DNA from: Shewanella sp. | Lineage (GTDB): Bacteria; Pseudomonadota; Gammaproteobacteria; Enterobacterales; Shewanellaceae | Assembly: GCF_013214165.1 (NCBI RefSeq) | Contig: NZ_JABSSM010000001.1 | Location: 62,001-126,000 of the forward strand | DNA length: 64,000 nt | Direction of reading: 5' to 3' | Translations under genes and position numbers: made by a program | Notes under the pieces: model-generated | What the model was told of the DNA's origin: nothing | Databases searched by the model: none | What the model saw: only the letters and a program-made list of their open reading frames with translations | Part shown: positions 24,522 to 43,921 of the stretch, piece by piece | Layout: each line of letters opens with the position of its first letter | Position numbering within the stretch: the stretch's first letter is position 1

Positions 24522-25129
24522 TTAACTCCATTGAAACTAGACGTGTTACCACTTATATGCACTTTAAACTAAACTGACACCGAATAACCGCAAGTTGTTT
24601 ACAACTCAGTTTAGCTCAATATCTGACTAAAAGTGTAACCTATTTCTACCATAAAAATGCGATCCAAGTCACTTTTTATGCACAATATTGGTTAATTTTT
24701 GCCTAGCGAGCAGATTGATTCGATTTTATGTTCAGGGAAGCGAGTTTAGCGCTTCAGGGGCAAGGCAACGAGTATGGAACATAAGGGAGAATAGCCCTAT
24801 GAATTCGCTAACAAGAAGAGTCATCAGCTTATATATCACCTCTCATTACAAGATCTGGAGCCAGTCCTATATTTCTCATCGCTATGCCGACTTCTGTGGC
24901 AATAAAAGGCCTGACATCACATTCTCAGCCACTATCGTTTTCACCAGCTTACTCGGTTTAAGCAATTTCCACCGGTTCGAACAGCACTTCTTGAAACTGA
25001 AAATAAACTTCACTTCAACGAAAAATTCAAACTAACCAGATGGATCAAGCTAGCAGTTTCAGCCTATCAGCCATATTGGCAAGTTCCATGCAGTAACTCA
25101 GTATCCCTGAAGCAAAAAGGATAGCTGGT

Positions 25130-26407
25130 ATGCAAAAGGCAAATAATGCAGCCACTCAGTCGCATAGTCGTATGCAGAATACAAATTCCGATGAATTACA
25201 TGTTCTCTGGATAAATAAACATGCGGATTTTGTCGGTGGAGCGGAGCGCTATATCCACGATACCGTGAAGGCATTAGCTGAAAAAGGCATTAAATCAACC
25301 TTGCTATATCAGTTAGACGGCAAGATCCATCCCAGATTCACTCATGTATTTAATAGTGTCTATCCAATCACAGAGCTTAAAACACAACTCAAAAACCACG
25401 CCGCCACTGTTATTTACCTCCATCAGCTAGACCATGTACAGGATATAGAGACTTGCGTTCACAGTGGTATTGCCAGTATTCGTTTTTATCACGACCATAA
25501 ACTCTTCTGCCTTAGGGAGCACAAATACACCACAATAGGGCTCAACACTTGTCAGCGAAAAACGGGGCCAACCTGCTATGCCTGCTTAGGTTTTATTGGT
25601 CGAAATTCCCAACATAAATTAACCCTGAATCGACTGGGTAATTTACGCGCTCAACAACACAGTAATCAAAAATTAGCCGGGTTTATTGTTGGCTCTCAAT
25701 ATATGTCACAGGTCCTCAAACAACATGAGTTTGACGTGAGTAAAACCCATGTGATCCCGCTATTCACCACCTCCAACAAATCAACCTTCAAGCTGCCACA
25801 GCCTCGATACTCGAACCAGTTGCTCTACGTTGGCAGCCTGATGCGCGGCAAGGGCGTCGACCTGTTATTACATGCGATTGCTAGGCAGAATAAGCAGGCT
25901 AACTTACTGATCTGCGGAGAGGGTCCTCAAAAAGAGGAGTTGCAACAACTCAGCCAAAAACTTGGAATTGATACCAGAGTGGAATTTAAGGGCCAGTGTA
26001 ACCCAGAGACATTGGCCAAATACTACCAACAAGCATCGGCGCTGGTGATCCCATCTCGCACGCCTGAAACTTTTTGTTTGACGGGTATAGAGGCGCTTTC
26101 CTATGCCTGCCCCGTGATCGCAACCCGTGTCGGTGCGATCCCCGAGTGGTTACAAGATGGCGTAAACGGCACTCTAGTAGAGAGCAATAATCTTGTCGCA
26201 CTCAGTGACGCTATTCGGGAGCACCTTCTCCACCCCCAAACGACTCAGAGCCATACTCAGCAAGATATTATGCAGCAATACAATTTAGAGACTCATATTA
26301 ACCAGCTTCTACAGGTTTTTCACCATGTCCAGAGGGAAAATTCAAGCCACACCATCACGGCAACGTCAACGTCAATCACCGAAGGGAGCAGCCATGTTAA
26401 CCATTAA
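25130..26407 (+). CDS. Glycosyltransferase, GT4-like
   Basis: N-term HADFVGGAERYIHDTVKALAEKG; C-term GT-B VPSRTPETFCLTGIEALSYACPVIATRVGAIPEWLQDGVNGTLV. Confidence 0.9.
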   Translation: MQKANNAATQSHSRMQNTNSDELHVLWINKHADFVGGAERYIHDTVKALAEKGIKSTLLYQLDGKIHPRFTHVFNSVYPITELKTQLKNHAATVIYLHQLDHVQDIETCVHSGIASIRFYHDHKLFCLREHKYTTIGLNTCQRKTGPTCYACLGFIGRNSQHKLTLNRLGNLRAQQHSNQKLAGFIVGSQYMSQVLKQHEFDVSKTHVIPLFTTSNKSTFKLPQPRYSNQLLYVGSLMRGKGVDLLLHAIARQNKQANLLICGEGPQKEELQQLSQKLGIDTRVEFKGQCNPETLAKYYQQASALVIPSRTPETFCLTGIEALSYACPVIATRVGAIPEWLQDGVNGTLVESNNLVALSDAIREHLLHPQTTQSHTQQDIMQQYNLETHINQLLQVFHHVQRENSSHTITATSTSITEGSSHVNH

Positions 26408-27590
26408 ACACGTCACTCTGCTACAAGATCCCCAGGCGGAAGATTTTTGCCAAGATGTACTGACACAGGTGTGCGATACCGTCGAGACATACCTGGATAA
26501 AAACCAAGTCTGCGCCTTAGTCTTATTAGGCGGTTATGGCCGCGGTGAAGGAGGATTGATCTGCCACCCTGTGAGTGGCAAGCTCTATCCACACAATAAT
26601 TTCGATCTGCTACTGATCCTTAACCGGCAGATATATGCAGATCCACAGCTAAAAAAGTCCATTAATCAGGCGTTGCAGCCTATTAGCCAGCAAGCGGGAT
26701 TAGGAATTGATATCTCTTTTACCACCCGAGCTAAGATGCGTAGTTCGGCTTGTCGCGTGATCTGGTATGACATGCGACACGGTCACCGAACCTTGCTAGG
26801 GGATGAAGATTTCGTGCCGTCATTAACCCAACATACGCTGCAGAACATCCCGGCTTGGGATGCACGAAACCTCTTGATTAACAGGGGTTCCCTATTGCTT
26901 ATCAATCGATTTTTATTGGCTCAAAACGAACCCGATCGTTATCGAACCACCATCATTAAACATACCATGAAAGCGATCATTGGCTATGGTGATGCGCTCT
27001 TGTTCTCCTTAGGGAAATACCATTGGTCTTATGCAGAAAAACAGCTGCGTATGACCCATGAAACCAGCATAGAACCAGGGTTCAAACAGCTGTATCTAGA
27101 GGCAATGAGTTTTCGCTTTTCCCCCAGCTATACTCGGTTTGAGAATATCGAGCTCAACGACTGGAACGAATCCATCATAACCGCCTTGCAGCCTGTCCAT
27201 CTTCGCTGTGAGCGCCAGCGTCTGCACCAAGCGGATCTCACCTGGACAAGCTACCTTAAATACGCATCCAGTGATGCCTTTTGGCATAACGACAACCAGT
27301 TTAAAAATCTGATGAAGCGCACTCTGGGACGGCTAATGCAGGAGGGAATGATGACGCGAAGGCTTACCATTATCCAAGAGGCTCCTCCCTGGACTTATCT
27401 GGCATTGACTCAAGCGGAAAAACTGCCGCTGTGCTTTCCCTATGTGCTCTATCGTCAAGGGAAACAAGCAGAAGGCGCTGCCGATGTCTTGACTCGGCGC
27501 TACCTTAAAAACTGGCAGAACTTTGTGGATACTAACCTAGCTAATCTACTGGACGGCTTAGGCTTATCCTTGGAGGAGGCTAACTTATGA
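26394..27590 (+). CDS. Nucleotidyltransferase-fold-like protein
   Basis: ALVLLGGYGRGEGGL ... NNFDLLLILNR ... GLGIDISFTTRAK resembles a GG-x-GxGEG / D-x-x NTase pattern; start moved to MLTIKHVTLL with upstream gggagc. Confidence 0.55.
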   Translation: MLTIKHVTLLQDPQAEDFCQDVLTQVCDTVETYLDKNQVCALVLLGGYGRGEGGLICHPVSGKLYPHNNFDLLLILNRQIYADPQLKKSINQALQPISQQAGLGIDISFTTRAKMRSSACRVIWYDMRHGHRTLLGDEDFVPSLTQHTLQNIPAWDARNLLINRGSLLLINRFLLAQNEPDRYRTTIIKHTMKAIIGYGDALLFSLGKYHWSYAEKQLRMTHETSIEPGFKQLYLEAMSFRFSPSYTRFENIELNDWNESIITALQPVHLRCERQRLHQADLTWTSYLKYASSDAFWHNDNQFKNLMKRTLGRLMQEGMMTRRLTIIQEAPPWTYLALTQAEKLPLCFPYVLYRQGKQAEGAADVLTRRYLKNWQNFVDTNLANLLDGLGLSLEEANL

Positions 27591-28435
27591 TTTATCTAAG
27601 TGCAGATATTCATCACGCCAGTTTGCGCACCGGCAATCAAGCCCATTGTGATATCTCAGAGCTAGGCACGGCAAGGTTATTTCTTAAGCGTATCGAACAG
27701 GCGCACGTCAAGTTAACTTGCTTTATTACCGGTCGCTGTTTCGTCGAAGAATGGGCCGATACACGGGTGCTATGCATGAGTGACTGGGTTGAAATTGGTG
27801 GTCACACCTGGAGTGGTTTTACGCCACAGATTTGGCACCGCATCTGTAACAAGCTGTTAGGCAACTATAACGGCCCGCACTGGTATCAATATTTAGATAC
27901 TCTAGGCACCATCAAGATCATCGAACGCAAGACTGGCAAGCGGATAACCTGCTGGCGAAACCACATGTATATGCATGGTCCCAATACCGACAGAGTATTG
28001 AGCCAGCTCGGGATCAAGCTGTGCTCCGATGGAGTAAAACGCAACAATTTTCAGCCCCTCGAATCCAAGCATGGGGTGTATAACTTCCCTATTAACATCA
28101 TTCCTGACCATGAGCACCTCTACCACGCAGAGCGCACCCCTGAATGGGTCGAACACTGGCAAAAACGTTACTCATGGTCCGATGATTTTGGCAGCGAAAG
28201 CTACTATATCCGCGAATGGACAGAGCGGGTGTTAAACCAGCTGAAAAGGTGTGAAGCCAAGGGGCTCGATGCCAACTTATTGATCCACCCCATCACCATG
28301 TACTTATGTGACAAGTTTCAATGCTTCGACCAGATACTCGACTACATAAGTACCCAAGAGACGGCTTGGCTCAGTGACGCAATCCCAGTCCCTCAATCTT
28401 CACCGGACTTCACAGAGGAAACTCGCCATGCCTGA
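27587..28435 (+). CDS. Polysaccharide deacetylase (NodB-fold)-like protein
   Basis: MIYLSADIHHASL, VEIGGHTWSG, ITCWRNHMYMHG, LLIHPITMYL fit NodB motif order; ATGA overlap with upstream gene. Confidence 0.65.
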   Translation: MIYLSADIHHASLRTGNQAHCDISELGTARLFLKRIEQAHVKLTCFITGRCFVEEWADTRVLCMSDWVEIGGHTWSGFTPQIWHRICNKLLGNYNGPHWYQYLDTLGTIKIIERKTGKRITCWRNHMYMHGPNTDRVLSQLGIKLCSDGVKRNNFQPLESKHGVYNFPINIIPDHEHLYHAERTPEWVEHWQKRYSWSDDFGSESYYIREWTERVLNQLKRCEAKGLDANLLIHPITMYLCDKFQCFDQILDYISTQETAWLSDAIPVPQSSPDFTEETRHA

Positions 28436-29384
28436 ATCAGCCTCACAAGAGCATAAGAAAGCTACAATCGCCGCGCCCCTTAATTTGAGCAGCCACAGAT
28501 TAGCCATCATCATGCGCTCAAAGAACTCAGCTTGGGTCATCGCCAACACACTTGCGGCGCTACATTCACAAGACTTCCAAGATTATGATTTGATTCTGGT
28601 GGATTCAGGTTCGACAGATACAACTCTAGACATCGCCCGCTTCTATGATTGCCAACTCATCCATATAGAGCCAGGCGATTACTACCCGGGTAAGGTGCTC
28701 AATCAGGCCATTGAGCAATGTCAGGCCGATATCCTGGTTTTTCTAAACTCAGACGCCGTATTACTGAGGGACGACTCCCTCTCTCATTTACTCGATGCGT
28801 TTAATGCTCCCGACACTGTCGCAGCATTTGGCCGTCAGATCCCCCGCCCCGAAGCCCATCAATGGGTAAAGCGCGATTATGCCACCAGCTTTCCTGCAAC
28901 AGGCACTCCCCCAAGCTGGATAACCTTGTCATTACCCTTCGCCGCCATGCGCCGACAATATTGGCTACAACATCCTTTCTATGAGGATGCCTGGGGATCT
29001 GAAGATACTGAATGGGGACATTGGGCGCAAACTTGCGGATACAAAATAGCCTATGTTCCCCAGGCACTTCTTATGCATTCTCATAATTACACCTTGAAAC
29101 AATTGTACGGTCGACGGTTTGTGGAGGGAGAAGCGGATGCGTTTATCTATCATAAAAAGCATAAGCTTATCTCAGCCTTTACTCGTTTTTGCAAAGGATT
29201 TATCCGCGGCTGTTATCACCACATCATCACAGCTGACTTAGCAGGGCTGCTCGCCACTCCGGGTCGAGTGTGTGTCTACCACTGGGCATATTATTCCGGC
29301 TTACGCTGGGGTAACACCCGGATTAGCTTGCAGTTAAAAAACGACTCGACTGGTCAACAAGCCGTGTTATCCCGCTACCAGTGA
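28428..29384 (+). CDS. Glycosyltransferase family 2
   Basis: AIIMRSKNSAWVIANTLAALHSQDFQDYDLILVDSGSTDTTLDIA, ILVFLNSDAVLL, DAWGSEDTEWGHWAQ. Confidence 0.92.
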   Translation: MPESASQEHKKATIAAPLNLSSHRLAIIMRSKNSAWVIANTLAALHSQDFQDYDLILVDSGSTDTTLDIARFYDCQLIHIEPGDYYPGKVLNQAIEQCQADILVFLNSDAVLLRDDSLSHLLDAFNAPDTVAAFGRQIPRPEAHQWVKRDYATSFPATGTPPSWITLSLPFAAMRRQYWLQHPFYEDAWGSEDTEWGHWAQTCGYKIAYVPQALLMHSHNYTLKQLYGRRFVEGEADAFIYHKKHKLISAFTRFCKGFIRGCYHHIITADLAGLLATPGRVCVYHWAYYSGLRWGNTRISLQLKNDSTGQQAVLSRYQ

Positions 29385-29455
29385 TCTCAACCCTTGAATA
29401 CGTTCAGTAACTCAGAGATATGCCTATATGGCTCAAGTTATATCAGGGACCTAAT

Positions 29456-30718
29456 ATGAAAAATCGCGACAAATACCCTATCGCTCAAGTCATGCGTAGA
29501 TTCCATATAAAGGAATGGGGGGGCATGGAAGGTGTCGTTTGGAATACCAGCTTGGGCTTAAAACAACAACATCACATCGATAGTCATATTTTGTGTACAC
29601 AAGCACTCAATAGCGTTTCATCGGAGGTGATAGATAACATCCCTATCGAACGCTTTCGCTACCATTACCCTTATATAGGGTTAACCAAAGAAAAGAGGCT
29701 CAATCTGGATAAAAAAGGCGGAAATCCCTACTCCTTCTCCCTTAGCCAGAGACTATTGAGAGGTGAATTTCGTTTATATCATTGCCACACCATGCAGCGT
29801 ATGGCTGCTATGGTGCGATATGCAGCCATGCGGCGTGGACTGCCCTATGTCATCTCCTTACACGGCGGTCAATTTACGGTTCCAAAGACCGAAATAGACA
29901 GCCTGAGCAAACCTTTGCAAAACACCCTCAATGCCGGTAAGGCTATCGATCTGCTTATGCAACCGCACAAAGTATTGACCGATGCCAGTGGCATCATCTG
30001 TATTGGCTACAATGAGTACCTTAAAGCCCAAGTATGTTTCCCTGATAAACCAGTAATTTATTTGCCAAACGGAGTGGATTCCAGCCGTTTTTCAACACCC
30101 GTGAGCCTGAATGTACACCAACATCTGCACATACCCAAGGGCCGAAAATTACTGCTATCGGTCGGGCGCATCGACAGTCAGAAAAACCAACTGATGCTTA
30201 TCGAATTACTCAGCCGATTACATGCGAGGGGACATACTCAGTATCAATTGATTTTGGCAGGCCCGGTGATCCAGTCAAGTTACTTGAGTCAATTACTCAG
30301 AAGCATAGAGCGCACTAAACTGCAGGCCCATGTCACTATTATTCCAGGCATTGAGCCCGATGATGAATTGCTGCCAGCTCTGTATCAACAATCGTCCTGC
30401 TTCTTACTCGCTTCCACTCATGAACCCTTTGGCATTGTGGTATTGGAAGCATGGAGCGCCGGATTACCTGTGGTTGCCAGTCGTGTCGGCAGCCTGGTTC
30501 ACCTGATCAGGCACAATCAAGATGGCTTGCTTTTTAATCCAGACAACCTGGACTCACTGCAGGCGAATGTCTGCAAGGTATTAAGCTCACCATCCTTCGC
30601 GAAACGTCTTATTGAACATGGGCTTGCTCGAGTTAAAAGCGAATACAGCTGGCCTCGACTGGTCTCCCATTTAGAGGCATTTTATCGAACCGTAGAGAAC
30701 TGGCATTACAGTAAGTAG
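29456..30718 (+). CDS. Glycosyltransferase, GT4-like, EWGG-type N-terminus
   Basis: RRFHIKEWGGMEGVVW, PYVISLHGGQFTVPK, CFLLASTHEPFGIVVLEAWSAGLPVVASRVG. Confidence 0.92.
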   Translation: MKNRDKYPIAQVMRRFHIKEWGGMEGVVWNTSLGLKQQHHIDSHILCTQALNSVSSEVIDNIPIERFRYHYPYIGLTKEKRLNLDKKGGNPYSFSLSQRLLRGEFRLYHCHTMQRMAAMVRYAAMRRGLPYVISLHGGQFTVPKTEIDSLSKPLQNTLNAGKAIDLLMQPHKVLTDASGIICIGYNEYLKAQVCFPDKPVIYLPNGVDSSRFSTPVSLNVHQHLHIPKGRKLLLSVGRIDSQKNQLMLIELLSRLHARGHTQYQLILAGPVIQSSYLSQLLRSIERTKLQAHVTIIPGIEPDDELLPALYQQSSCFLLASTHEPFGIVVLEAWSAGLPVVASRVGSLVHLIRHNQDGLLFNPDNLDSLQANVCKVLSSPSFAKRLIEHGLARVKSEYSWPRLVSHLEAFYRTVENWHYSK

Positions 30719-30779
30719 CGAATGAACGGGTCACAGGACTTAGTATCTCATGGATAAGATATTAACAAGAGGGAAAAAT

Positions 30780-31946
30780 ATGCGCCTTATATTTAGTGCT
30801 TGCGGCTTCGATTGCGGCAAATCAGGCATTTCTCAATATATGCAAAATGTGGTGACTGAATTACTCAAATCACATCATGTTACTGTGTTAATCAATAACA
30901 GGGATCAAAAGTTCTGGCCCATCGAACACCCAAGACAAACACTGCTGGTACTGCCCTGGTATTTAAACCACCCCATTGCCAATATGGTTTACCACACCTG
31001 GGTACTGCCTTACAGACTCAAGCAACGACTCAAGACTAGCCATTATGATGCGCTTATTTTACCGGCTGCCAATCGCCGAGTATTGAGTCATTATCCCTTG
31101 CCTACGGTTGCCACGTTTCACGATTTGTCCCAATGCCATATCGCCAATAAATACGATATGCTTCGTATGCACTACATTCGTCATCTTATTCCCAAATGTC
31201 TACAACCCAGAACCAGTCCCTACCGCCCTCATCTCATTGCCGTGAGTGACAATACCCGTAAGGATATGGAAACGTTTCTGCACATTCCGGCTCATCATAT
31301 CAGTGTGCTACACAATGGATACGACAAGAGTCTGTTCAATGAGCAACAACCCACTGATCACGCCAAACGCTTGCAGCGCCTGCAGCTTAAACCGGATTAC
31401 CTGTTATATGTCTCGCGCATAGAACATCCGGGGAAAAATCATATCGGCCTGATCCAAGCGTATGAAAAACTGCCCGAGACCATACGTAACAAGCACCCCT
31501 TGGTGTTTGTCGGTAGTGCCTGGTCAGGGGCCCAAGTGGTATTTAAGCGAATTGCCGACTCACCTGCAGCAAACTCCATTAGGGTGCTTGGTTTTGTTGA
31601 TAGCAGCGATCTGCCTAGCCTGTATCACGGCGCAGCAGCGTCTGTGATGCCCTCGCTTTATGAAGGCTTCGGACTCCCTCTTGTGGAAGCAATGGCATGC
31701 GCAACACCTGTGGCTTGCTCTAATCGGGGGGCGATGCCGGAAGTTGTGGGAGAGGCAGCCCTTTGTTTCGACCCAGAAAGTTCAACAAGTATGGCCCAAT
31801 GCCTAGGAAAAATACTCACACAGCCGTCTTGTCAGCAAGAATTGATCCGGCGGGGACTCGAACGGGTAACGGCGTTCGACTGGGGAGTACATACCAGAAT
31901 GTTACTCAATACGTTAAGCAACCAGCAGGAAAAAATGAACACTTGA
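30780..31946 (+). CDS. Glycosyltransferase, GT4-like
   Basis: GKSGISQYMQNV, FHDLSQ, SLYEGFGLPLVEAMACATPVACSNRGAMPEVVGEAALCFDPE. Confidence 0.92.
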   Translation: MRLIFSACGFDCGKSGISQYMQNVVTELLKSHHVTVLINNRDQKFWPIEHPRQTLLVLPWYLNHPIANMVYHTWVLPYRLKQRLKTSHYDALILPAANRRVLSHYPLPTVATFHDLSQCHIANKYDMLRMHYIRHLIPKCLQPRTSPYRPHLIAVSDNTRKDMETFLHIPAHHISVLHNGYDKSLFNEQQPTDHAKRLQRLQLKPDYLLYVSRIEHPGKNHIGLIQAYEKLPETIRNKHPLVFVGSAWSGAQVVFKRIADSPAANSIRVLGFVDSSDLPSLYHGAAASVMPSLYEGFGLPLVEAMACATPVACSNRGAMPEVVGEAALCFDPESSTSMAQCLGKILTQPSCQQELIRRGLERVTAFDWGVHTRMLLNTLSNQQEKMNT

Positions 31947-31990
31947 TCACTTAACAAGATCTCAAAAACAATCGAGACAAGGAGAACATA

Positions 31991-33238
31991 ATGAAGGTAC
32001 TTTTTGTAACACCTTATATCCCCTATCCCCTTAACAGTGGAACCAACCAACGCGTGTTTAACCTGCTTAAGGCCGTATGTGATGAGCATGAGGTGATTTT
32101 TTTTAGCCTGACCCATAACGATGCCGAGCTATCACGAGCCGAAGAATTACAGTCACTATTGCCATTTAGCCAGTTCCACACTGAGCCCATAAAATTAAAA
32201 GCCTGGCGCAGTCTGTCAAAACGCATATTGGATCCTATTCCCGATACCTTACACCACTGGTTTGATATTGAGATCTGTCATGCACTCAGGCAGTTGGTGC
32301 AATCTAATTCATTTGACCTAGTGCATTGTAGTGATATATGTATGACTCAGTATTTTCAGGACATAGATTGTCGATGCCCGCTAATTAACGACCATAGCAG
32401 GATAGATAGCGAATACCAATTAGAGCAACTGCCCTATTTACGGGGCTGGAAACGCCGTCTGTCAGCCAGAGAGAACATGTTTAAAACGCGCCGTTTCGAG
32501 AAGCGATTAAGCACACGATTCCCCCTGCATGTGGTGTGCTCAAGAGAAGACAAAGATTACCTAATGCACCACCAGCAACTCGACACGCCTCCATTGGTAT
32601 TAGAAAATGGCTTCGACAGTGACTATTTTTACCCACAAGAAAAACCCATTAATAATAATCCAACCTTAGTCTTTACTGGCACCATGGACTACGAGCCTAA
32701 CCTAGACGGCATGCGCTGGTTTATACAAGATATCTGGCCCAAGGTACTAGAAAAACTTCCTGATGCTCGCTTAATTATCGTTGGAACTAAGCCTACGGAA
32801 GAAGTTTACTCTTGGCAAAATGGTGAACAAGTTGTCGTTACAGGTGAAGTCGCCGATATACGTCCCTATTACGCCATGGCTGATGTCTATATTTGCCCCC
32901 TTCGCATCGGCGGTGGCACCCGACTAAAACTCGTAGAAGCCTTAGCAATGGAGCGGCCTGTGGTTAGCACCCGGGTCGGTGCACAAGGCTTGGCATTATG
33001 CGACCAGCAACATATTTACTACGCCGACAATGCATCCCAATTTGCGAATAACATTTTAAAGACCCTATCAGACCTAGCATTCGCCCTTAAAATATCAAAG
33101 CAAGGCGCTGATCTTGTGAGGGAAAAGTATAGCTGGAAAGATTTGGCACGACGATTGATTGACTATTATCAGGAGCATACAAAAAACAACTGGAGCAAGG
33201 CCCATGACAAAGAAACTGACTCTTTTTACATTTATTGA
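31991..33238 (+). CDS. Glycosyltransferase resembling the EpsH1/PEP-CTERM-associated sugar transferase type
   Basis: PYIPYPLNSGTNQRVFNLLKAV, TGTMDYEPNLDGMRWFIQDIWPKV, ICPLRIGGGTRLKLVEALAMERPVVSTRVGAQGL. Confidence 0.85.
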   Translation: MKVLFVTPYIPYPLNSGTNQRVFNLLKAVCDEHEVIFFSLTHNDAELSRAEELQSLLPFSQFHTEPIKLKAWRSLSKRILDPIPDTLHHWFDIEICHALRQLVQSNSFDLVHCSDICMTQYFQDIDCRCPLINDHSRIDSEYQLEQLPYLRGWKRRLSARENMFKTRRFEKRLSTRFPLHVVCSREDKDYLMHHQQLDTPPLVLENGFDSDYFYPQEKPINNNPTLVFTGTMDYEPNLDGMRWFIQDIWPKVLEKLPDARLIIVGTKPTEEVYSWQNGEQVVVTGEVADIRPYYAMADVYICPLRIGGGTRLKLVEALAMERPVVSTRVGAQGLALCDQQHIYYADNASQFANNILKTLSDLAFALKISKQGADLVREKYSWKDLARRLIDYYQEHTKNNWSKAHDKETDSFYIY

Positions 33239-34346: not shown

Positions 34347-36327
34347 GTTTTCTTCCGCCGAGGGGCCTCAAACTGAAACCAGTGGTCTTAAGATCGATCT
34401 GGAGCTGCTTTGGTCCCAATTAAAAGGCAAAATATGGTTACCATTTCTGGTGGCCATATTGTGCGGCGCCACGACTCTACTGTTAACTAAATATTTTATA
34501 AAAGATAGCTGGAAAGCCAACACCATCATCATCCGCCATCAGAAGAATATGTCCTCACAAGCTGACATCCCCTACCTGTATCTGCAAATTGACTTCAACA
34601 CCATAATGCAAACGATATTGGTTCGGGATCATCTGCTTAGGGTTATCGAGCGCTTGGAGCTCTCCCTCACACCCGAGGACTTGTACAACAGCATCAATAT
34701 CAGCCGGGGCAATCGCTCAGATATTATCAATATCGCCGCTGTCTGGCACCAGCCAGAAATGGCAGTCAAGATGTCGGACACTGTCAGTGCGGTCTTTCTT
34801 GAATCCTATTCCAGCGTACAAAACTCTGCCGCACAAAAGGTGAATACCTACTTCCTCAATGAGCTTTCAGCAAGCCGCCAAGCACTCATAGCGGCACAGC
34901 AAGCAGAGTCCGACTTCAGGCAGCAACACCAGTTGTTGTCATTTGACGAACAGATGGCATCGAACTACCAGAAAATACAGACGTTAGAAATTAAATACAT
35001 CGAAAGCCAGGTAGCCACTGACGAAAAAAGAGCCAAGTTAAAAGCGACAATCTCAAAGCTCACCACCATTCCAAAGGAGATCCCACTGGAAACCATGGTT
35101 GCCGGTACCGCGGTAAGCCGTATCAATGGACTACGTGAGAATCTACAACTGCTCAAACTGAAATACACCTCACAAAACCCTAAAGTCATGGCAATGGAAC
35201 AAAAAATTTCCACCCTGCAGAGTAATTCCGACAACACGTCTGTTACCGGCCAGGCCAGCACAAAAATCTATGGTCAAAACCCCCTTTATCTGGAGCTAGA
35301 GTTGGAGAAGATCCATTATGAGTTTGACCTTTATGTCTCTGATCAGTCACTAGCCGGTTATCGCCTTGGCATTAATAATACCAAGGCCAGTCTGCAGCGA
35401 CTCAGTGCCCTAAGACAAGACCATCAGCGTCATCAGGACCAAATAAATGAATATCGTCATCTGGTCAGCACATTGGAAGGCAGGGTCACCGATTCTAAGC
35501 TCGCGTTAGAGTCGAATATCAGTGACTTTGAAATCATCGAAAACGCGCTGCCGCCAAAATATCCTGAGCGCTCGTATCGTAAACTCATTGCCGTCGCGGC
35601 AGGCATATTTGGCTTTACCATTAGCGCACTGGTACTGATCGCTAGAGTCATTTTCGATCCAAGAGTGAAAACCCGCGATGACCTAGACGGCAAACGTTTA
35701 ATCGGTGTCCTTCCCGATAAAGACACAGTCGAAGAATGCCACTATTACAGCGCATTTCAGGGCCTATTTAGCAACCTTGAACAACTTCGAAGTGAGAGTG
35801 GCAATCAAAGTAAACTCATCACCTTAAGTAGCACTCACCAGCATGAAGGTAAATCCACCATCGCCAATGCCCTCACAGATATTTACCTGCGTCAGGGCAA
35901 GCGCGTTCTGTATATTGAGTCAGTTGAAGAAGGCGACAACGTCGATGAGGCCGTACTCAATCCCTTCATCTACGGAAAAGAGTCCCAATGGCAGCCACTC
36001 AATATTGCCGATAATATCGATCATGCTTACTTCGTTTACGATCAAGACATATATTTAAATTATCTGGATAAAGCCAGTTTCGACGTGACTATCAAGGCGA
36101 TATCTCAGGACTATGATGTCGTTATCTGGGAGCTTTTTCCTGCCCAGCGCCATTTGCAACTCTACAGCGTGATCAATAACTCCCCTGCCGCGATTCTGTT
36201 AATAGCAAAAAGCCTATTTACGCGAAAAGACAAGCTTAATAGAGTGAGCAACTACTTGAGCGAAAAGAATATTAAGCCCATAGGGATCATACTCACCCAA
36301 GTACCTAAGGACATCTACCATGCCTAA
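34330..36327 (+). CDS. Wzz-domain chain-length/BY-kinase-like polysaccharide protein with degenerate ATPase motifs
   Basis: N-terminal TM and Wzz region, coiled coil, second TM, then LITLSSTHQHEGKSTIANALTDIYLRQGKRVLYIESVEEGDN ... YDVVIWELFP. Confidence 0.85.
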   Translation: MNSVPEFSSAEGPQTETSGLKIDLELLWSQLKGKIWLPFLVAILCGATTLLLTKYFIKDSWKANTIIIRHQKNMSSQADIPYLYLQIDFNTIMQTILVRDHLLRVIERLELSLTPEDLYNSINISRGNRSDIINIAAVWHQPEMAVKMSDTVSAVFLESYSSVQNSAAQKVNTYFLNELSASRQALIAAQQAESDFRQQHQLLSFDEQMASNYQKIQTLEIKYIESQVATDEKRAKLKATISKLTTIPKEIPLETMVAGTAVSRINGLRENLQLLKLKYTSQNPKVMAMEQKISTLQSNSDNTSVTGQASTKIYGQNPLYLELELEKIHYEFDLYVSDQSLAGYRLGINNTKASLQRLSALRQDHQRHQDQINEYRHLVSTLEGRVTDSKLALESNISDFEIIENALPPKYPERSYRKLIAVAAGIFGFTISALVLIARVIFDPRVKTRDDLDGKRLIGVLPDKDTVEECHYYSAFQGLFSNLEQLRSESGNQSKLITLSSTHQHEGKSTIANALTDIYLRQGKRVLYIESVEEGDNVDEAVLNPFIYGKESQWQPLNIADNIDHAYFVYDQDIYLNYLDKASFDVTIKAISQDYDVVIWELFPAQRHLQLYSVINNSPAAILLIAKSLFTRKDKLNRVSNYLSEKNIKPIGIILTQVPKDIYHA

Positions 36328-37393
36328 TTTTATCCTGTTCACTAGATTACTTGCACTGACGCTTCTGTTATCGAGCTGCGCCAGCCGAGACCCCACTAGT
36401 AACCCGCCCCTTGAATTACCCTTAGTACTGCAAAAAATAGCTGATGTAGAGACCTTAGACGAACCAGCACATATTTCCCTGCAACGCCGAGAGCAAGAAT
36501 TAACCGAGTTACACCAGGTGAAACCCGGTACTTATGAAATTTCAGCCGGGGATAAATTTAATGTCTTTGTTTATGGCGAGCCTGATTTAGACAGTAAACA
36601 GGCGATAGTAAAACTCGATGGTAGCCTGACTTTTAAACTCATTGGTGATGTACAAATTGCGGGGAAAACCGTGCCACAGGCCACAGCCCTAATTGAGAAA
36701 GAATTACAGCGTTATATTCACTTTCCTAAGGTGACCCTGATGCCATACGACATGCGTAGTGCATCCATCACCATCATAGGTAAAGTCATTCACCCCGGCG
36801 TATATTACTTCGATGGTTCACTGAGAGCCGCCGAAGCCATTGGCCTAGCAGGCGGGTTCTCCACGGGTGTCTTTGATGACAATACCATCGAATTAGCGGA
36901 TCTAGAACACTCCTATATCCAGCGAGGGGAATACTTATTACCCGTTGATTTAACTAAGCTTATACGTAAAGGAAACATGCATCACAATGTCCCCTTAGTG
37001 GACGGGGATTACGTTTATATTGCCTCCTCCATGAGTCAGGAAGTTTTTATCACAGGTGAAGTGAATAAGCCTAGCTATTATGGCTACAGTGAACGCATGA
37101 CCCTAGCGCGCCTGGTATCGAGAGCGGAAGGCCTATTACTTACCGCCAATAGCCATGTGCTGGTGATCCGCGGCAACATCAAACACCCCCTGGTCTATAA
37201 GGTCAACATAGACAAGATCCTCAACGGAGAAACCCGCGACTTTTTAATTCAACCCAACGATTTGGTTTATGTGCCCAAGAGTATGATCGGCTCGTGGAAT
37301 GCATTACTCAGTCAGTTAATGCCAACGCTGGAAACCATGCTGACAGGCTTATTACTCGAACACAGAGTAAGCGACTTACAAAGTCGTAATTAA
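36320..37393 (+). CDS. Polysaccharide export outer-membrane lipoprotein, Wza-like
   Basis: LALTLLLSSCAS lipobox; YEISAGDKFNVFVYGEPDLDSKQAIVKLDGSLTFKLIGDVQIAGKTVPQA; SLBB-like VFITGEVNKPSYYGYSERMTLARLVSRAEGL. Confidence 0.92.
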   Translation: MPNFILFTRLLALTLLLSSCASRDPTSNPPLELPLVLQKIADVETLDEPAHISLQRREQELTELHQVKPGTYEISAGDKFNVFVYGEPDLDSKQAIVKLDGSLTFKLIGDVQIAGKTVPQATALIEKELQRYIHFPKVTLMPYDMRSASITIIGKVIHPGVYYFDGSLRAAEAIGLAGGFSTGVFDDNTIELADLEHSYIQRGEYLLPVDLTKLIRKGNMHHNVPLVDGDYVYIASSMSQEVFITGEVNKPSYYGYSERMTLARLVSRAEGLLLTANSHVLVIRGNIKHPLVYKVNIDKILNGETRDFLIQPNDLVYVPKSMIGSWNALLSQLMPTLETMLTGLLLEHRVSDLQSRN

Positions 37394-37404
37394 GGACAGC
37401 AGAC

Positions 37405-38760
37405 ATGACTGAGTTTAAGTACCTCATCTTCTTCATGACCTTAATAATAGGTGTACCTCTAGGTTACCTCTGCTGCCTGCATTCTAAAAATTGCGAGAAA
37501 TTAGTGTTCTTTCTGGTGATATTCTTTACCTGCGACATGGTCGATATCAACTTTGTCTCCATGGAGACCTATCGTGGCACGACTAGAGGATTTGAATTCG
37601 GCATGGTGGATATTTCACTGTATATTTTGCTGAGTTTAGTGCTTAATCGCAGGCATCAATTGCCCATCGACTGGTTTCCAATGGGCTCAAGTCTGTACCT
37701 GTTATATTTTCTATTTAGCCTGGCATCGATCATCAATGCCGATGTTGGGATCTATTCCGCCTTCGAAATTCTCAAGATGTGCCGTATGTATGTCTACTTC
37801 TGGACCATAGCAAATTACCTGAGAAATGAGCGGCAATTGCAGTGGCTGATGACCACCATCGGCGCCATTATCATCTACATCTTTCTCTCTGTCATGAAAC
37901 AAAAATATCTACTCGGCATGTTTCAATGTAAAGGCCCCTTTCCCCATCAAAACTCATTGGTGATGTATGTTTCAATCTTTGGCGCCATGGCCCATGCCTA
38001 TCTGCTCAATGTTGCCAGCAGCCGAAGTTGGTTTTGGTTCACCATCTTTGGTATGGCCTCTATCTGCATACTCGCCACACTCTCTCGCGCAGGCCTTGCC
38101 CTGTTTATTCTCAATAGTTTAATGGTGTTTTTCATCTCAGTCGTCAGTAAACAAAGCAATGCCAAGGTCAGAAAGCGTCACCTGATCTTACTGATCATCC
38201 TACCACTGGCGGGAACCCTAGTATTAATCAAGGCCTCAGACACCATTCTTGAACGATTCTTATCCGCTCCGGAAGAGTCAAAGATGGTGAGAATTCGACT
38301 CGCCAAAGCAGCGCTCTATATGGCCAATGACAAGGTGCTTGGTGTGGGCTTGAATAACTTCGCGCATAAGATCAATCCTCCCTATTCATACTCATCACAT
38401 ATCCCCATGGTCGACGAAAATGATCCCGATGAAAAACATGGTTTGGTGGAAACCGTTTACTTAATGATTGCAGCCGAAACAGGCTGGTTAAACCTGATTA
38501 TTTTTATCAGCTTGCTACTCTTTTTCTATACCAAAAACATCAACAATTATTTCCGATTGAAAGGCTCGCAGAGTCGCTATATCTGCATTGCCTTGATTGC
38601 TTCACTGACCTGTATCTATCTGCAGTCCACCTTAGAGTGGGTGCTGAAACAGACCAATAATTTTTATCAATTGATGTTGGTATTTGCACTTATTGCCACC
38701 ATGGACCGAATGATCCAAACAGGAGAGCTCAATGGCCAAGCCAAACGAAAGAGATGCTAA
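37405..38760 (+). CDS. O-antigen ligase/Wzy-like polytopic membrane protein
   Basis: Many TM stretches; CILATLSRAGLALFILN; large periplasmic-loop-like region before LVETVYLMIAAETGWL. Confidence 0.8.
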   Translation: MTEFKYLIFFMTLIIGVPLGYLCCLHSKNCEKLVFFLVIFFTCDMVDINFVSMETYRGTTRGFEFGMVDISLYILLSLVLNRRHQLPIDWFPMGSSLYLLYFLFSLASIINADVGIYSAFEILKMCRMYVYFWTIANYLRNERQLQWLMTTIGAIIIYIFLSVMKQKYLLGMFQCKGPFPHQNSLVMYVSIFGAMAHAYLLNVASSRSWFWFTIFGMASICILATLSRAGLALFILNSLMVFFISVVSKQSNAKVRKRHLILLIILPLAGTLVLIKASDTILERFLSAPEESKMVRIRLAKAALYMANDKVLGVGLNNFAHKINPPYSYSSHIPMVDENDPDEKHGLVETVYLMIAAETGWLNLIIFISLLLFFYTKNINNYFRLKGSQSRYICIALIASLTCIYLQSTLEWVLKQTNNFYQLMLVFALIATMDRMIQTGELNGQAKRKRC

Positions 38761-39139
38761 TTATTTTTATCAGCAGCTTTCTGCCGGTGTCAAAGCCGAC
38801 TTATCTCGCCAGCAAGGTGAGGAATTTCTGCGAGTATTAAACCGGGCAGTGTCCGTACCCAGTCAAAAACTACTCTCACTCCAGCTCAGCTTCTGGTGCT
38901 TCCGGCATTTCTATCTGGTGCTGTACTGGGGACTCGACTCTCGCGCCAGAGAACGCACCAGCGCCGTCCCTATCGTCAGCGGTTTACTCGCCAATGGCAC
39001 CCTTATTCTTTCCAAAGGAATATGTTTTATTCTGGCCAGTTTAATCATCTTCTGGGTGGCATACGAAATCAAATCCCTCCTCGGAGTCGACCTGTTTAAG
39101 AATTTTCACCTTGTCGATTTAATTAGGTCATTACTATGA
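38732..39139 (+). CDS. Small membrane protein of unknown function within the polysaccharide operon
   Basis: Overlaps upstream gene by 29 nt and next gene by ATGA; central and C-terminal TM segments. Confidence 0.7.
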   Translation: MAKPNERDANYFYQQLSAGVKADLSRQQGEEFLRVLNRAVSVPSQKLLSLQLSFWCFRHFYLVLYWGLDSRARERTSAVPIVSGLLANGTLILSKGICFILASLIIFWVAYEIKSLLGVDLFKNFHLVDLIRSLL

Positions 39140-40329
39140 AAAAACTCAATATCTTGATCATCAGTAACTACTACCCACCCTTTCACATTGGCGGTTATGA
39201 ACTCGCCTGTAGAGATACGGTGGAATTCTTAACTAAGAAAGGGCATAGGGTAACGGTACTGACTGGGAATAAAGGTCAGGGTACTCAATCAAGCATTCAG
39301 CAAATGGCAGCTGTCCATCGGGAGCTCTCTTATATTGATTATGATAACCCCAGCTATCGCCAACGAGCCGAGGTTGAAACGGCTAACTACCAAATCTGCC
39401 AAGAATATATTGAACAGGTATTACCCGACCTTATCTATCTGTGGAATCAGCAATACCTTTCTTTAGCACCATCACTTGCCAGCCAAAATAGTGGTATTGC
39501 TAAACTCTATGAAATTGGTGACTTTTGGCCCGCCGCTTATATTCGTCCAGGCTTTATTAATGCCCTAAAACGTAAGGTAAAACCTTGGCTACCGGGTCTG
39601 ATTGGCGGAAAGTTCGATTTTGGCCCCTGCATCGCTTGCTCTCACTGGTTGGGCAAAGCCATTAAAGAGCAGCTCAACGCCCGAAATGTAGCCGTCATAC
39701 ACAATGGTACTCAATTGGGCGCTGAGCCTCAAAGCAAGCGTCAGCAGCCTACTTCATTCCTGTTTTGTGGACGACTATGTCAAATCAAAGGAATAGAGCA
39801 AAGCCTACAGGCATTTAAATTATTGCTCGATAAATGCCCTAAAAAACCGCTGAGCCTAACCTGTATAGGCCCGATAGAGCCCAGTTACCAGCAGGTTATC
39901 GAACAGATGATCCACACCTTGCACCTAGGAGAGCATGTACAGATTTTACCTCCTACCGATGACATGAAGCAGGTCTATCAAGCACACCATGTGTTACTGA
40001 TGCCAACCTTGATGCCTGAGCCTTTTGGTCTGGTCATCATCGAAGCCATGGCCAATGGCTTGGCAGTCATCGCCAGTGACCGTTTCGGGCCGGCCGAGAT
40101 AATTAATCAGCATAAGCTGGGCATTTTGATCGACCCAGAGGACCCTATCGCCATAGCCGATGCCATGGCACAGCTTATCGACGACCCTGCCCGTTATAAT
40201 GACATGACTAAAGCCGGCTATCAGCATGTCGACGCTCACTTTCGACTGGAGAGCGTCAAGGCGAAAGTGGAACAAGTTCTGCTCCAAACGGTGGAGGATC
40301 ATGCATTATGCCTCGCACTAAACAATTAA
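39136..40329 (+). CDS. Glycosyltransferase, GT4-like
   Basis: ISNYYPPFHIGGYELACRDTVEFLTKKGHRVTVLTG; LMPTLMPEPFGLVIIEAMANGLAVIASDRFGPAEII. Confidence 0.92.
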   Translation: MKKLNILIISNYYPPFHIGGYELACRDTVEFLTKKGHRVTVLTGNKGQGTQSSIQQMAAVHRELSYIDYDNPSYRQRAEVETANYQICQEYIEQVLPDLIYLWNQQYLSLAPSLASQNSGIAKLYEIGDFWPAAYIRPGFINALKRKVKPWLPGLIGGKFDFGPCIACSHWLGKAIKEQLNARNVAVIHNGTQLGAEPQSKRQQPTSFLFCGRLCQIKGIEQSLQAFKLLLDKCPKKPLSLTCIGPIEPSYQQVIEQMIHTLHLGEHVQILPPTDDMKQVYQAHHVLLMPTLMPEPFGLVIIEAMANGLAVIASDRFGPAEIINQHKLGILIDPEDPIAIADAMAQLIDDPARYNDMTKAGYQHVDAHFRLESVKAKVEQVLLQTVEDHALCLALNN

Positions 40330-41843
40330 TTAAATTAACCGCGTCAAACTATTTGGCCACCATCATCAAGTTTGTGGTGATGGTGTACTTGACCCGGGAG
40401 ATGTTCCTCCTGTTACCCAAGGAGTCCTATGGTTTTTGGGCCTTGCTTTGGTCCATATTTGGCTACTCGGTGTTACTGGATCTGGGTTTTGGCATCGCCT
40501 TACAGAAAAAAACCAGTGAAGTATTGGTGCATCAAGATTGGAAAAGCTATAACCGCACGGCATCGACATTATTCGGCACTTATTTCTTATTAGGCTTTGT
40601 CATCGTGTTACTCACCTGCCTCAGTGCCCCATTTTTACATGTCATCTTTGTCTTTGAGCCGGGACAAGGGCTCATATACACCCAATGTTTTCTGCTGTTC
40701 GGTATCGGTACCGGCTTGCTTTTCCCCTTCGGCATATTTATGGAGGTGTTGCGCGGCGCTCTGTGCATCCAGATCCGCAATCGTATCGAGGTACTCAGAG
40801 ATATAGCCAACTGTATTGCCCTGGTGATAGCCCTCAGAATGCATGCCGACATACGTGTACTCGCCGTTATCGCAGTCACCAGTCAATGCTTAGCGAATAT
40901 TGCCATGTATATCGCCACCAAGCGTGCCTTGCCTCGCTTACGGCTCTCATGGCGTTTATACAGCCCAACAAAAATGGTCGAACTGATGAGCTTCTCACTC
41001 TGCGCCTATGTGATCACCATCAGTAACTTGATTGTTTTCAGAACCGACCAGATAGTCATCTCAGCCCTGGCTGGTGTAGGCCTAGTGGCCTACTACCACG
41101 TAACGACTCGTGTGGCCGAGATTTTCCGCTTGCTCTGCTCGCAAATACATGACCTGTTAGCCCCTATGTCTTCAAGCTTTAACGCCCAACAAGATCAACA
41201 GGCGTTACGCCAACTCTTACTCCGTAGCCAACGCTTTGTCTGTCTTATCGTGGTCTTACTCATTGTGCCTTCATGGTTTTTTATCGAAGATCTGCTGCGG
41301 ATCTGGCTCGAGATTGATAATCAACAAACCTTTTGGTGTGCACGGATTTTATTACTCAATATCGCCATTCTGGTTATTTATCGCAATACCACCAATCAAA
41401 TCTTACTCATGTGTGGTTACCAAAAACCCTTGATGTGGATAGGAATAACCGAATGCATCGCCAACCTGATACTAAGCTGTTTGCTGATACACCCCCTTGG
41501 CATCCTAGGTGTGGCTTTGGGCACACTCATTCCCAATATCCTATTGGCCATCTTCGTCAACATTCCCATGACAAGAAAATTCACTAACACATCACATTGG
41601 CAGTCCTACAAGCCACTGATTATCGTCGGCTTGACCGTTGGCCTGCCGTACGCCGCTGGGCTAGTCTTATTTGAGCAAGTGACAGCAAGTTATAACTCTC
41701 TGCTGCATATCATTGCGGTCAGCGTGATCTGCGCGATCCCGGCACTCTTTTCAGCCTACAAGTGTTGTCTGTCTGCCGGTGAGCGCCATCAATTGAAACG
41801 CATCATCAGTTCTATGCTGCCTAGCTGGCAGTTGAAATTGTAA
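40308..41843 (+). CDS. Wzx-like polysaccharide flippase (MATE/MVF-type)
   Basis: About 12-14 TM segments; LLDLGFGIALQKKTSEVL, FRTDQIVISALAGVGLVAYYHVTTRVAEI. Confidence 0.85.
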   Translation: MPRTKQLIKLTASNYLATIIKFVVMVYLTREMFLLLPKESYGFWALLWSIFGYSVLLDLGFGIALQKKTSEVLVHQDWKSYNRTASTLFGTYFLLGFVIVLLTCLSAPFLHVIFVFEPGQGLIYTQCFLLFGIGTGLLFPFGIFMEVLRGALCIQIRNRIEVLRDIANCIALVIALRMHADIRVLAVIAVTSQCLANIAMYIATKRALPRLRLSWRLYSPTKMVELMSFSLCAYVITISNLIVFRTDQIVISALAGVGLVAYYHVTTRVAEIFRLLCSQIHDLLAPMSSSFNAQQDQQALRQLLLRSQRFVCLIVVLLIVPSWFFIEDLLRIWLEIDNQQTFWCARILLLNIAILVIYRNTTNQILLMCGYQKPLMWIGITECIANLILSCLLIHPLGILGVALGTLIPNILLAIFVNIPMTRKFTNTSHWQSYKPLIIVGLTVGLPYAAGLVLFEQVTASYNSLLHIIAVSVICAIPALFSAYKCCLSAGERHQLKRIISSMLPSWQLKL

Positions 41844-41918
41844 ATCGAGCCAATACATGACTAGTATTTATCATAATTAGGTGAGTGAATTTTCAACATC
41901 TACTTTTGGAGCAAGAAT

Positions 41919-43151
41919 ATGACCAAAGGAACCATTATCAATATTCCCCGCAGATTCGTAAAAGATGAATGGGGCGGCACCGAAACCGTGATAACTGAAA
42001 CTGCACATCAGCTTAAATCTATCGGATACCAGCTTGAGAGCGTGACGACACTGGCCTTATCCAACAATAAGCATGAGTGTATTTTCGGCATTCCAGTTAA
42101 ACGTTTTGACTATAGTTATACTCGTCTAGGTCTATCGAAGAAGCATAGACTCCTGCTCGATAAACGCGGCGGGAATATGTTCTCACTGCCTCTGTTTTTT
42201 TATCTTATCTTCAGTAAAAATATCCGTGTTATCCACCTGCATACCATGGGCAGATTGGGGGCATTGGCCCGCATCGCCGCTCGACTGAAAGGTATCCCCT
42301 ATGTCGTCAGTATTCATGGCGGCTATTTGGGTCTGCCCAAAGAGCAACTAGACGATATGATGCTCCCCCTGAAAGGTAGCTTTAACTGGGGCAAACCCTT
42401 CGATCTCCTGATACGAAGCGCGAAGGTGATAGAAGGTGCAGACGCCGTTATATGCGTAGGGGAAAACGAGCGGGAGAAGATAGCGGCAAAATATCCCCAA
42501 CAAAAAGTGATCTATTTACCCAATGGCGTTGACCAGCAAAGATTTGCCTCGGGTGATGCATGCGCATTTATTAACCAGTACCATTTCACCGAATCCGACA
42601 AGATAATCTTGTGCGTCAGTAGTTTTACCCCGCAAAAAAACCAAGCAAGCTTACTCAGGGCTTTTGCCAAAGCACACCAGCACTCCCCTGAGTTAAAACT
42701 GGTGTTAATTGGCGTTATTTATGATCAGGACTATTTTGACCTTTTACAGAGCCTACGGACTGAGTTCAAACTGCAGCAAGATGTTCGCTTTATCATCAAC
42801 CTGAAATTCGATGACCCTAGCTTAGCCAATGCCTATGCCGCCGCAGAACTGTTTGTATTGCCTAGCCTCTATGAACCCTTCGGCATTGTCGTGCTTGAAG
42901 CCTGGGCATCTGGCACTCCAGTCCTTTGTGGTAATGTCGGAGGATTACCTTCTTTTGTAACAAACGGCGAAAATGGCTTGTTCTTTGACGTTGAGTCTGT
43001 GGACTGCCTCTGCCTAGAAATGACCAAGATCTTACGCGATAAGGTGCTCTATAAGTACATTCAAGCTCATGCCCTCAAAGCCGTCGAAACCTACTCATGG
43101 CAAGCCATATCCAAACGTCTGGCGAACCTGTATGAAGAAATTTCATCATGA
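41919..43151 (+). CDS. Glycosyltransferase, GT4-like, EWGG-type N-terminus
   Basis: RRFVKDEWGGTETVITETAHQL, PYVVSIHGGYLGLPKEQ, LPSLYEPFGIVVLEAWASGTPVLCGNVGGLPSFV. Confidence 0.93.
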   Translation: MTKGTIINIPRRFVKDEWGGTETVITETAHQLKSIGYQLESVTTLALSNNKHECIFGIPVKRFDYSYTRLGLSKKHRLLLDKRGGNMFSLPLFFYLIFSKNIRVIHLHTMGRLGALARIAARLKGIPYVVSIHGGYLGLPKEQLDDMMLPLKGSFNWGKPFDLLIRSAKVIEGADAVICVGENEREKIAAKYPQQKVIYLPNGVDQQRFASGDACAFINQYHFTESDKIILCVSSFTPQKNQASLLRAFAKAHQHSPELKLVLIGVIYDQDYFDLLQSLRTEFKLQQDVRFIINLKFDDPSLANAYAAAELFVLPSLYEPFGIVVLEAWASGTPVLCGNVGGLPSFVTNGENGLFFDVESVDCLCLEMTKILRDKVLYKYIQAHALKAVETYSWQAISKRLANLYEEISS

Positions 43152-43921
43152 AATATCTGTTGATGCTTATGTTCATGTTAATTGCAGCCTGTGCCCAGCT
43201 TAGTTCCAAAGATGTGCCCCAAGGCAGTGAAAGCAAGCTATTAACCATAGAGACCAAGCCAACCGAGGCTGCCATTTATAAAGATGGTCAATATATTGGT
43301 CATTCACCGCTGCAAACCTGGCTATGGCACGGGGCCCCAAGAATTAATCAGATTATCGCTGTGCCCCTGTACGAACATCAGTTCATCCAGATCCAGAGCC
43401 TGCGCATACCGACCATCCCAACGCTACTGACTTTTTATATGACTGAGCCTAGTCCCCATGAATATGATTTTTCAGAGAATCCGAGCCAGAGCACACTAGA
43501 ACAGCAGCCCAGTCCCTACTTTAAACGTCTACAGCTGTTTTTTGACTTCGATCAAGACCAGCTTAATATCAGTGAAATACAGCGGCTTACTCTTTGGATA
43601 AACCAGTTTGACGCAGACCCCGACAGGATAGAGGTGCACGCTTATGCCGATGAAACAGGCTCACAGCAGTACAATACAGCCTTGAGCCATCGCCGGTCAC
43701 TCGCCATTACCCTATGTTTACAGCGCTTAGCTATCAAGCCTAAAGAATTACTGGTTATTCATCACGGCGAGCGTGTATCTGTTACCCAGACACAGCAGCT
43801 AGCCAAACAAATCGATCGCCTAGTTGAGGTACTGGTTTTCTATCAGGCTCATGATACAGGGGATAGCACAGGCAATAAAAAAACTCCCGGGTTGCAGAAC
43901 CCGGGAGCTTTCAATAACTAA
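43148..43921 (+). CDS. PEGA-domain plus OmpA-like C-terminal domain lipoprotein
   Basis: MLIAACAQ lipobox; TIETKPTEAAIYKDGQYIGHSPLQTWLW; FDFDQDQLNISEIQRLTLWINQ...VHAYADETGSQQYNTALSHRRSLAI. Confidence 0.82.
   Translation: MKYLLMLMFMLIAACAQLSSKDVPQGSESKLLTIETKPTEAAIYKDGQYIGHSPLQTWLWHGAPRINQIIAVPLYEHQFIQIQSLRIPTIPTLLTFYMTEPSPHEYDFSENPSQSTLEQQPSPYFKRLQLFFDFDQDQLNISEIQRLTLWINQFDADPDRIEVHAYADETGSQQYNTALSHRRSLAITLCLQRLAIKPKELLVIHHGERVSVTQTQQLAKQIDRLVEVLVFYQAHDTGDSTGNKKTPGLQNPGAFNN
43878..43907 (-). terminator. sstT terminator lying inside the 3' coding end of the PEGA-OmpA gene
   Basis: CTCCCGGGTT-gcag-AACCCGGGAG preceded by a7 on plus, i.e. a T-run on the minus strand. Confidence 0.75.

Follow-up and report, generated by a model that had tools for sequence, protein, structure and literature searches.

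How can an operon that assembles a surface polysaccharide work when it encodes nothing to start the sugar chain? The question is raised by a 16-gene operon of a Shewanella sp. (assembly GCF_013214165.1), located at positions 25130-43921 of the analysed window, a stretch of 64,000 nucleotides from contig NZ_JABSSM010000001.1. Judged by its gene content, the operon belongs to a Wzx/Wzy-type exopolysaccharide or capsule pathway and serves surface polysaccharide assembly and export in some deep-sea-type Shewanella. An earlier reading of the DNA (the sequence-only reading, made without database searches) had proposed an undescribed exopolysaccharide assembly system. The exopolysaccharide operon is borne out and no published description of it was found, but the operon is not a self-standing system, containing no initiating sugar-phosphate transferase, nucleotide-sugar genes or regulator. 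The operon and a second locus on the same contig (C1), termed locus B, probably constitute one Wzx/Wzy-dependent pathway for an exopolysaccharide or capsule that is split over two loci, because locus B has the only PF02397 initiator of the genome, wza, wzz and wzy are exchanged between the two loci, and most genes of both loci are joined in a distant bacterium.

The operon consists of 16 genes, checked as open reading frames, all on the + strand and separated by -35 to +75 bp. By family searches, their order is GT4, nucleotidyltransferase (NTase)-like, NodB-like, GT2, GT4, GT4, GT4, phosphodiesterase, Wzz, Wza, Wzy, small membrane protein, GT4, Wzx-like, GT4 and PEGA-OmpA lipoprotein. The same-strand run described in the sequence-only reading thus exists at its coordinates, and the nine overlaps named there are exact (27587/27590, 28428/28435, 33204/33238, 34330/34346, 36320/36327, 38732/38760, 39136/39139, 40308/40329 and 43148/43151). 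The at least seven glycosyltransferases claimed correspond to six GT4 proteins and one GT2 protein by family match.

Complementary gene content of the operon and locus B

A search for initiating transferases of family PF02397 found a single one in the genome. Its gene (C1:151097-153214) belongs to locus B, follows the operon at a distance of 45 kb and encodes a WecG-PHPT fusion. The regulators of locus B comprise a hybrid histidine kinase with Hpt, a sigma-54 response regulator (PF00158 and PF00072), a receiver-PP2C phosphatase (PF07228 and PF00072), a HATPase and a STAS protein (PF01740). Locus B further encodes a phosphonate-binding-type periplasmic protein, a second flippase, an NTP-transferase/hexapeptide protein and a CDP-glycerol-type glycerophosphotransferase, and contains a glucose-1-phosphate thymidylyltransferase-like gene; a Wzi family gene is located nearby.

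Locus B was compared in 31 genomes, 27 without the operon and four with it (the source genome G000, G447, G003 and G010). The wza, wzz and wzy genes are found between the STAS gene and wzx in locus B of all 27 operon-less Shewanella (27/27). In the operon-bearing genomes, no trace of wza-wzz-wzy was detected in locus B at E <= 1e-6 (0/4). The STAS, receiver-PP2C, wzx, PHPT and glycerophosphotransferase genes of locus B persist in all four, with its regulators 88-96% conserved, and tagD is missing from the locus in all four. The functions gone from locus B are exactly those brought by the operon. Fisher's test gives a p value of 3e-5 if the genomes are independent, which overstates their independence. 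The source genome contains only two Poly_export genes, the operon wza and one on contig C139. The latter contig harbors a further polysaccharide locus (G000:C139:14001-26249; L019) that, by sequence, encodes a 919-aa multi-SLBB Wza, a Wzz, a flippase, a likely polymerase and a GT2 and contains a pyruvyltransferase-like gene.

Locus B is widespread in Shewanella (e.g. L066/L067), where it includes a syp-like switch, the WecG-PHPT fusion and TagD-like and glycerophosphotransferase genes. This gene set suggests a glycerol-phosphate-bearing polymer. In the source genome, the GT2 gene of locus B has been lost by an internal deletion that left the first 21 and last 13 residues (C1:150579-150694; L018:4579-4694), and a run of ~100 N, either masked or unresolved sequence, is located between the HATPase and STAS genes at C1 ~147018.

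G508, a genome from a different class of Pseudomonadota, also has genes of both loci. Contig C20 of G508 contains genes for HATPase, NTP-transferase, phosphodiesterase, Wzx, hexapeptide acetyltransferase, GT4c, PEGA-OmpA, AAA ATPase, Wzz, Wza, PHPT, NTP-hexapeptide and STAS proteins, and genes of both Shewanella loci therefore appear, by homology, in one cluster. The PHPT protein is 62% identical to that of locus B, and the Wza protein is the sole Wza of the genome. On contig C24, GT4a, NTase, NodB and GT2 genes flanked by core genes follow the window order (41, 41, 60 and 57% identity, respectively). Thus, G508 resembles the window in this four-gene order and in its phosphodiesterase, Wzx, GT4c, PEGA-OmpA, Wzz and Wza homologues, but differs in that the cassette and the remaining genes are on two contigs, the initiator and STAS genes lie within the cluster, and the AAA ATPase and hexapeptide acetyltransferase are extra. 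Related arrangements were observed in contigs of metagenome-assembled genomes. WecG, PHPT, NTP-hexapeptide, GT2 and NTase genes are contiguous, by sequence, in a Thiohalocapsa contig (L024), and phosphodiesterase, GT2 and NTase genes lie in a row in a Sumerlaeota contig. Such contigs carry some risk of misassembly, which is lowered by the agreement of three independent ones.

Conservation, insertion site and upstream region of the operon

The gene order of the operon is not due to chance because the 16-gene order is kept at the same site in G003 and G010 (about 70-97% protein identity) and is shared, over the fetched 21 kb (GT4a to Wzy start), by two Shewanella benthica genomes (DSM 8812 and KT99), which also contain close NTase copies. 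Of 60 evenly sampled Shewanella genomes, only four, including the source genome, have the phosphodiesterase.

The operon is preceded by housekeeping genes (queA and genes for an acyl-carrier-protein phosphodiesterase, a pseudouridine synthase and a small conserved protein) and followed by a dicarboxylate symporter gene on the opposite strand. In five relatives, these flanking genes adjoin without the operon (e.g. 540 bp apart in L123). Because the same site is empty in these relatives, the operon is, on this comparison, an insertion at a conserved site. Its G+C content resembles that of the surroundings, and the operon is therefore probably not a very recent arrival.

A small frame just upstream of the operon (24688-25035) carries an internally deleted acyltransferase-3 remnant. 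The acyltransferase-3 gene is intact in G003 and G010, where it contains PF01757 and is the first gene of the operon region; none was detected at the S. benthica loci.

A candidate sigma-54-type promoter precedes GT4a and matches at 19-20 of 22 points at the same position in five Shewanella genomes. A score of 20 was reached in 9 of 500 random 300-base windows. A sigma-54 scan of the whole window gave 39 matches versus 36.3 by chance, and only the position-conserved site was retained. In locus B, the genes for the receiver-PP2C and STAS proteins likewise have sigma-54-like sites ahead of them. The presence of such sites at both loci would allow common control, as weak evidence. An Rfam search of 20-48 kb of the window identified no RNA family.

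Proposed pathway and alternative explanations

The observed gene content, conservation, insertion site, single PF02397 initiator, gene exchange and clustering of most of both gene sets in G508 allow a pathway to be proposed, in which each biochemical step, the shared control and the polymer itself are inferred. The WecG-PHPT fusion of locus B would place the first sugar-phosphate on undecaprenyl phosphate, and the six GT4 proteins and one GT2 protein of the operon would extend the repeat unit. The NTase, NodB-like and phosphodiesterase proteins may make or modify a substituent. The unit would be flipped by Wzx and polymerised by the operon Wzy protein under Wzz. The chain would then be exported by the operon Wza protein, with the PEGA-OmpA lipoprotein tying the machine to peptidoglycan. 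Expression and activity would be controlled by the sigma-54 response regulator and the PP2C/HATPase/STAS switch of locus B. A bolder proposal, which is considered quite unlikely, is that the GT4a, NTase, NodB-like, GT2 and phosphodiesterase genes are a hitherto undescribed cassette for a non-standard substituent of the polymer. For example, a sugar hydroxyl would receive a nucleotide from the NTase, which the phosphodiesterase would trim to a phosphate. In this proposal, the cassette moved between distant bacterial classes, was joined to a capsule locus under partner-switch control and took the place of the polymerase and exporter of that locus.

Several points weigh against one split pathway. 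Locus B is present in many Shewanella without the operon, so the co-occurrence is one-sided, and the exchange may have happened only once if the four genomes with the operon form a clade. WecA-type initiators (PF00953), which the PF02397 search left out, could start the chain instead. Locus B retains its own wzx and glycerophosphotransferase genes and, with its GT2 lost in the source genome, may be in decay. The match to a sigma-54 site is modest and lies within generally conserved DNA. In one rival explanation, the operon works independently as a Wzx/Wzy exopolysaccharide system begun by a core-genome WecA protein (undecaprenyl-phosphate GlcNAc-1-phosphate transferase), and locus B is unrelated and lost wza-wzz-wzy by chance decay. 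Gammaproteobacteria commonly possess WecA, Wzx, Wzy, Wzz and Wza proteins are all encoded within the operon itself, and the GT2 deletion is a sign of decay at locus B. However, the functions lost and gained are exactly complementary in 4/4 genomes, the two gene sets occur together in G508, and regulators so well conserved alongside the operon are unlike those of a dying locus. An independent system is regarded as unlikely.

The gene exchange could also be genuine and yet serve two polymers through one shared exporter, with the Wzx and glycerophosphotransferase proteins of locus B producing a glycerol-phosphate polymer and the operon glycosyltransferases producing another. Two flippases are retained, the glycerophosphotransferase persists, and the genome has only one other Wza. 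Nevertheless, a given Wzy or Wzx enzyme usually acts on a single kind of repeat unit, and tagD, whose product would make CDP-glycerol, is missing from locus B in every operon-bearing genome; the two-polymer explanation is very improbable. The chance that the operon product is a glycoconjugate other than an exopolysaccharide, such as an O-antigen-like or protein-linked glycan, appears slight in the extreme: the Wzy_C family also spans O-antigen ligases, but the Wza and PEGA-OmpA proteins of the operon and the Wzi family gene near locus B point to surface export, and a separate polysaccharide locus is available on contig C139. A single pathway split between the operon and locus B is thus the preferred explanation.

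Relation to known polysaccharide loci

The sequence-only reading had considered the gene combination unusual and matched by no named locus. The mechanism class is well known, and only the set of genes and its split over two loci look new. No locus with the operon gene set was found in the open-access literature, subscription papers being outside the search. It is not the gene list that is of interest but the division between two loci and the conserved cassette.

The syp/rbd/scv loci of Vibrionaceae and other aquatic bacteria (PMC4517449, PMC3610818 and PMC8941931) resemble locus B in having STAS, receiver-PP2C phosphatase, sigma-54 response regulator and hybrid kinase genes beside polysaccharide genes. 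The Vibrio fischeri syp locus has a kinase/phosphatase/STAS switch made up of SypE and SypA, with SypG as the sigma-54 activator. The V. fischeri SypE protein fuses the kinase and phosphatase (PMC3610818), whereas the receiver-PP2C and HATPase proteins of locus B are encoded by separate genes; V. parahaemolyticus and V. vulnificus likewise lack sypE (PMC4517449). Unlike in syp/scv, the structural genes are split over two loci here, and no mention of the NTase, NodB, phosphodiesterase, WecG-PHPT fusion or glycerophosphotransferase was found in the syp/scv descriptions compared. The only scv-positive Shewanella named in PMC8941931 are S. corallii and Shewanella sp. SNU WT4.

The E. coli group 1 capsule system (Wza-Wzb-Wzc) resembles the operon in its Wzx, Wzy, Wzz/Wzc-like and Wza proteins and a nearby Wzi family protein. 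It differs in that the operon has no Wzb phosphatase, the Wzc-like tail has neither kinase residues nor tyrosines, and the initiator and regulators are elsewhere. The sfz stalk cluster of Zetaproteobacteria (PMC8250860), a class to which G508 may, as a guess, belong, is like the operon only as a polysaccharide export locus and was rejected as a match, as sfz1-6 are of BcsB-like, EpsE-GT2, GH10 and SH3-CotH types and share no gene set with it. An XrtA/PEP-CTERM exopolysaccharide locus was also rejected; the chain-length and export proteins scored below the cut-offs (97.8 versus 278.85 and 114.9 versus 180 bits), and no exosortase was found within the operon cluster, to which the search was confined.

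If the split pathway is correct, it would be a natural case of a locus that lost its polymerase and exporter, is served by an operon transplanted elsewhere in the chromosome, and kept its initiator and switch. The modularity of Wzx/Wzy systems would then be directly testable in Shewanella. For annotation, an exopolysaccharide operon without an initiator can be one half of a system with a distant locus. The conserved four-gene cassette and the phosphodiesterase are flagged, with no chemistry assigned to them.

Encoded proteins

Features of the operon and its upstream region in the window
Feature	Position	Strand	Evidence
Decayed acyltransferase-3 gene remnant	24812..25014	+	Two tblastn pieces (53% and 71% identity), not in the same frame
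Candidate sigma-54-type promoter TTGGCAAGTTCCATGCAGTA	25076..25095	+	~35-54 bp before GT4a start
GT4a glycosyltransferase	25130..26407	+	PF00534; 41% identical homologue in G508, same gene order
NTase-fold protein, N-x-D for D-x-D	26394..27590	+	Homologue alignment and fold hint; ATG at 26394 picked from alignment
NodB-like (polysaccharide deacetylase fold) protein	27587..28435	+	PF01522, 22.5 bits vs cut-off 23.1; 60% identical in G508
GT2 glycosyltransferase	28428..29384	+	PF00535; 57% in G508
GT4b glycosyltransferase	29420..30718	+	PF00534
GT4c glycosyltransferase	30750..31946	+	PF00534; 38% in G508
GT4d glycosyltransferase	31991..33238	+	PF13692
NPP/AlkP-type phosphodiesterase, no evident signal peptide	33204..34346	+	PF01663; conserved metal-ligand positions; PDB NPP relatives
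Wzz co-polymerase, degenerate kinase-like tail	34330..36327	+	PF02706
Wza outer-membrane polysaccharide exporter	36320..37393	+	PF02563, PF22461
Wzy polymerase	37405..38760	+	PF04932
Small membrane protein, no known family	38732..39139	+	No family match; conserved 85-87% in G003 and G010
GT4e glycosyltransferase	39136..40329	+	PF00534
Wzx-like flippase	40308..41843	+	Weak NF041503; 27% to clear flippase in G508
GT4f glycosyltransferase, GT4b paralogue	41919..43151	+	PF00534; 36% to GT4b
PEGA-OmpA lipoprotein	43148..43921	+	PF00691; PEGA

The assembly set named in the sequence-only reading is largely confirmed. Wzz, Wza (Poly_export and SLBB) and Wzy (Wzy_C, a family that includes O-antigen ligases) are all above the Pfam cut-offs. 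Wzx is the weakest assignment; it has no Pfam match, scores 36.9 bits against NF041503 (cut-off, 300) and is related to a PF13440 flippase in G508. The protein described as Wzz/kinase-like is a Wzz protein, but the kinase part does not hold. By eye, its tail keeps GKST, but the Walker A' (VLYIES) and Walker B (VVIWELF) segments lack acidic residues, and a tyrosine tail is absent. The Wzz-type protein is thus probably not a tyrosine kinase. Among the added proteins, the phosphodiesterase and OmpA assignments stand, and the NodB and PEGA domains fall below the Pfam cut-offs (for PEGA, 17.8 bits versus 20.8; a homologue with the same domain architecture exceeds the cut-off at 26.6 bits).

No Pfam family matches the NTase significantly. 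Its structure model, of low confidence (mean pLDDT (predicted local distance difference test) of 54.4), matches kanamycin/neomycin nucleotidyltransferases with a Foldseek probability of 1.00 but with E >= 1.7e-3, and serves as no more than a hint of the fold. The NTase keeps the GGYGRGEGG motif, and the first aspartate of D-x-D is asparagine in Shewanella and G508 and aspartate in L023 and L025. The N-x-D motif looks like a fixed subfamily trait, not decay, because it is common to the Shewanella and distant G508 proteins. In the NodB-like protein, GHTW is present, and, by eye, the second histidine position of motif 2 is phenylalanine in both homologues. The NTase and NodB-like proteins each lack one textbook catalytic residue, and their chemistry may differ from the family name; both are conserved and would therefore matter. 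PDB sequence searches with the two proteins returned nothing convincing, and no relative of either was found in a plasmid collection. The close NTase/NodB subfamily appears rare because, outside Shewanella, only G508 was strongly matched by the NTase profile (399 Pseudomonadota genomes) and the NodB profile (369 Gammaproteobacteria and 78 genomes of the G508 class).

In the phosphodiesterase, residues D12, D190, H194, D235, H236 and H341 are invariant in the alignment and match the six NPP metal ligands (assigned by eye), and the nucleophile position is serine in Shewanella and G508. The enzyme is predicted to be probably active; its structure model (pLDDT of 48.6) is too weak for any use. The GT4b and GT4f proteins are paralogues that align over 412 residues, which points to an old duplication within the operon.

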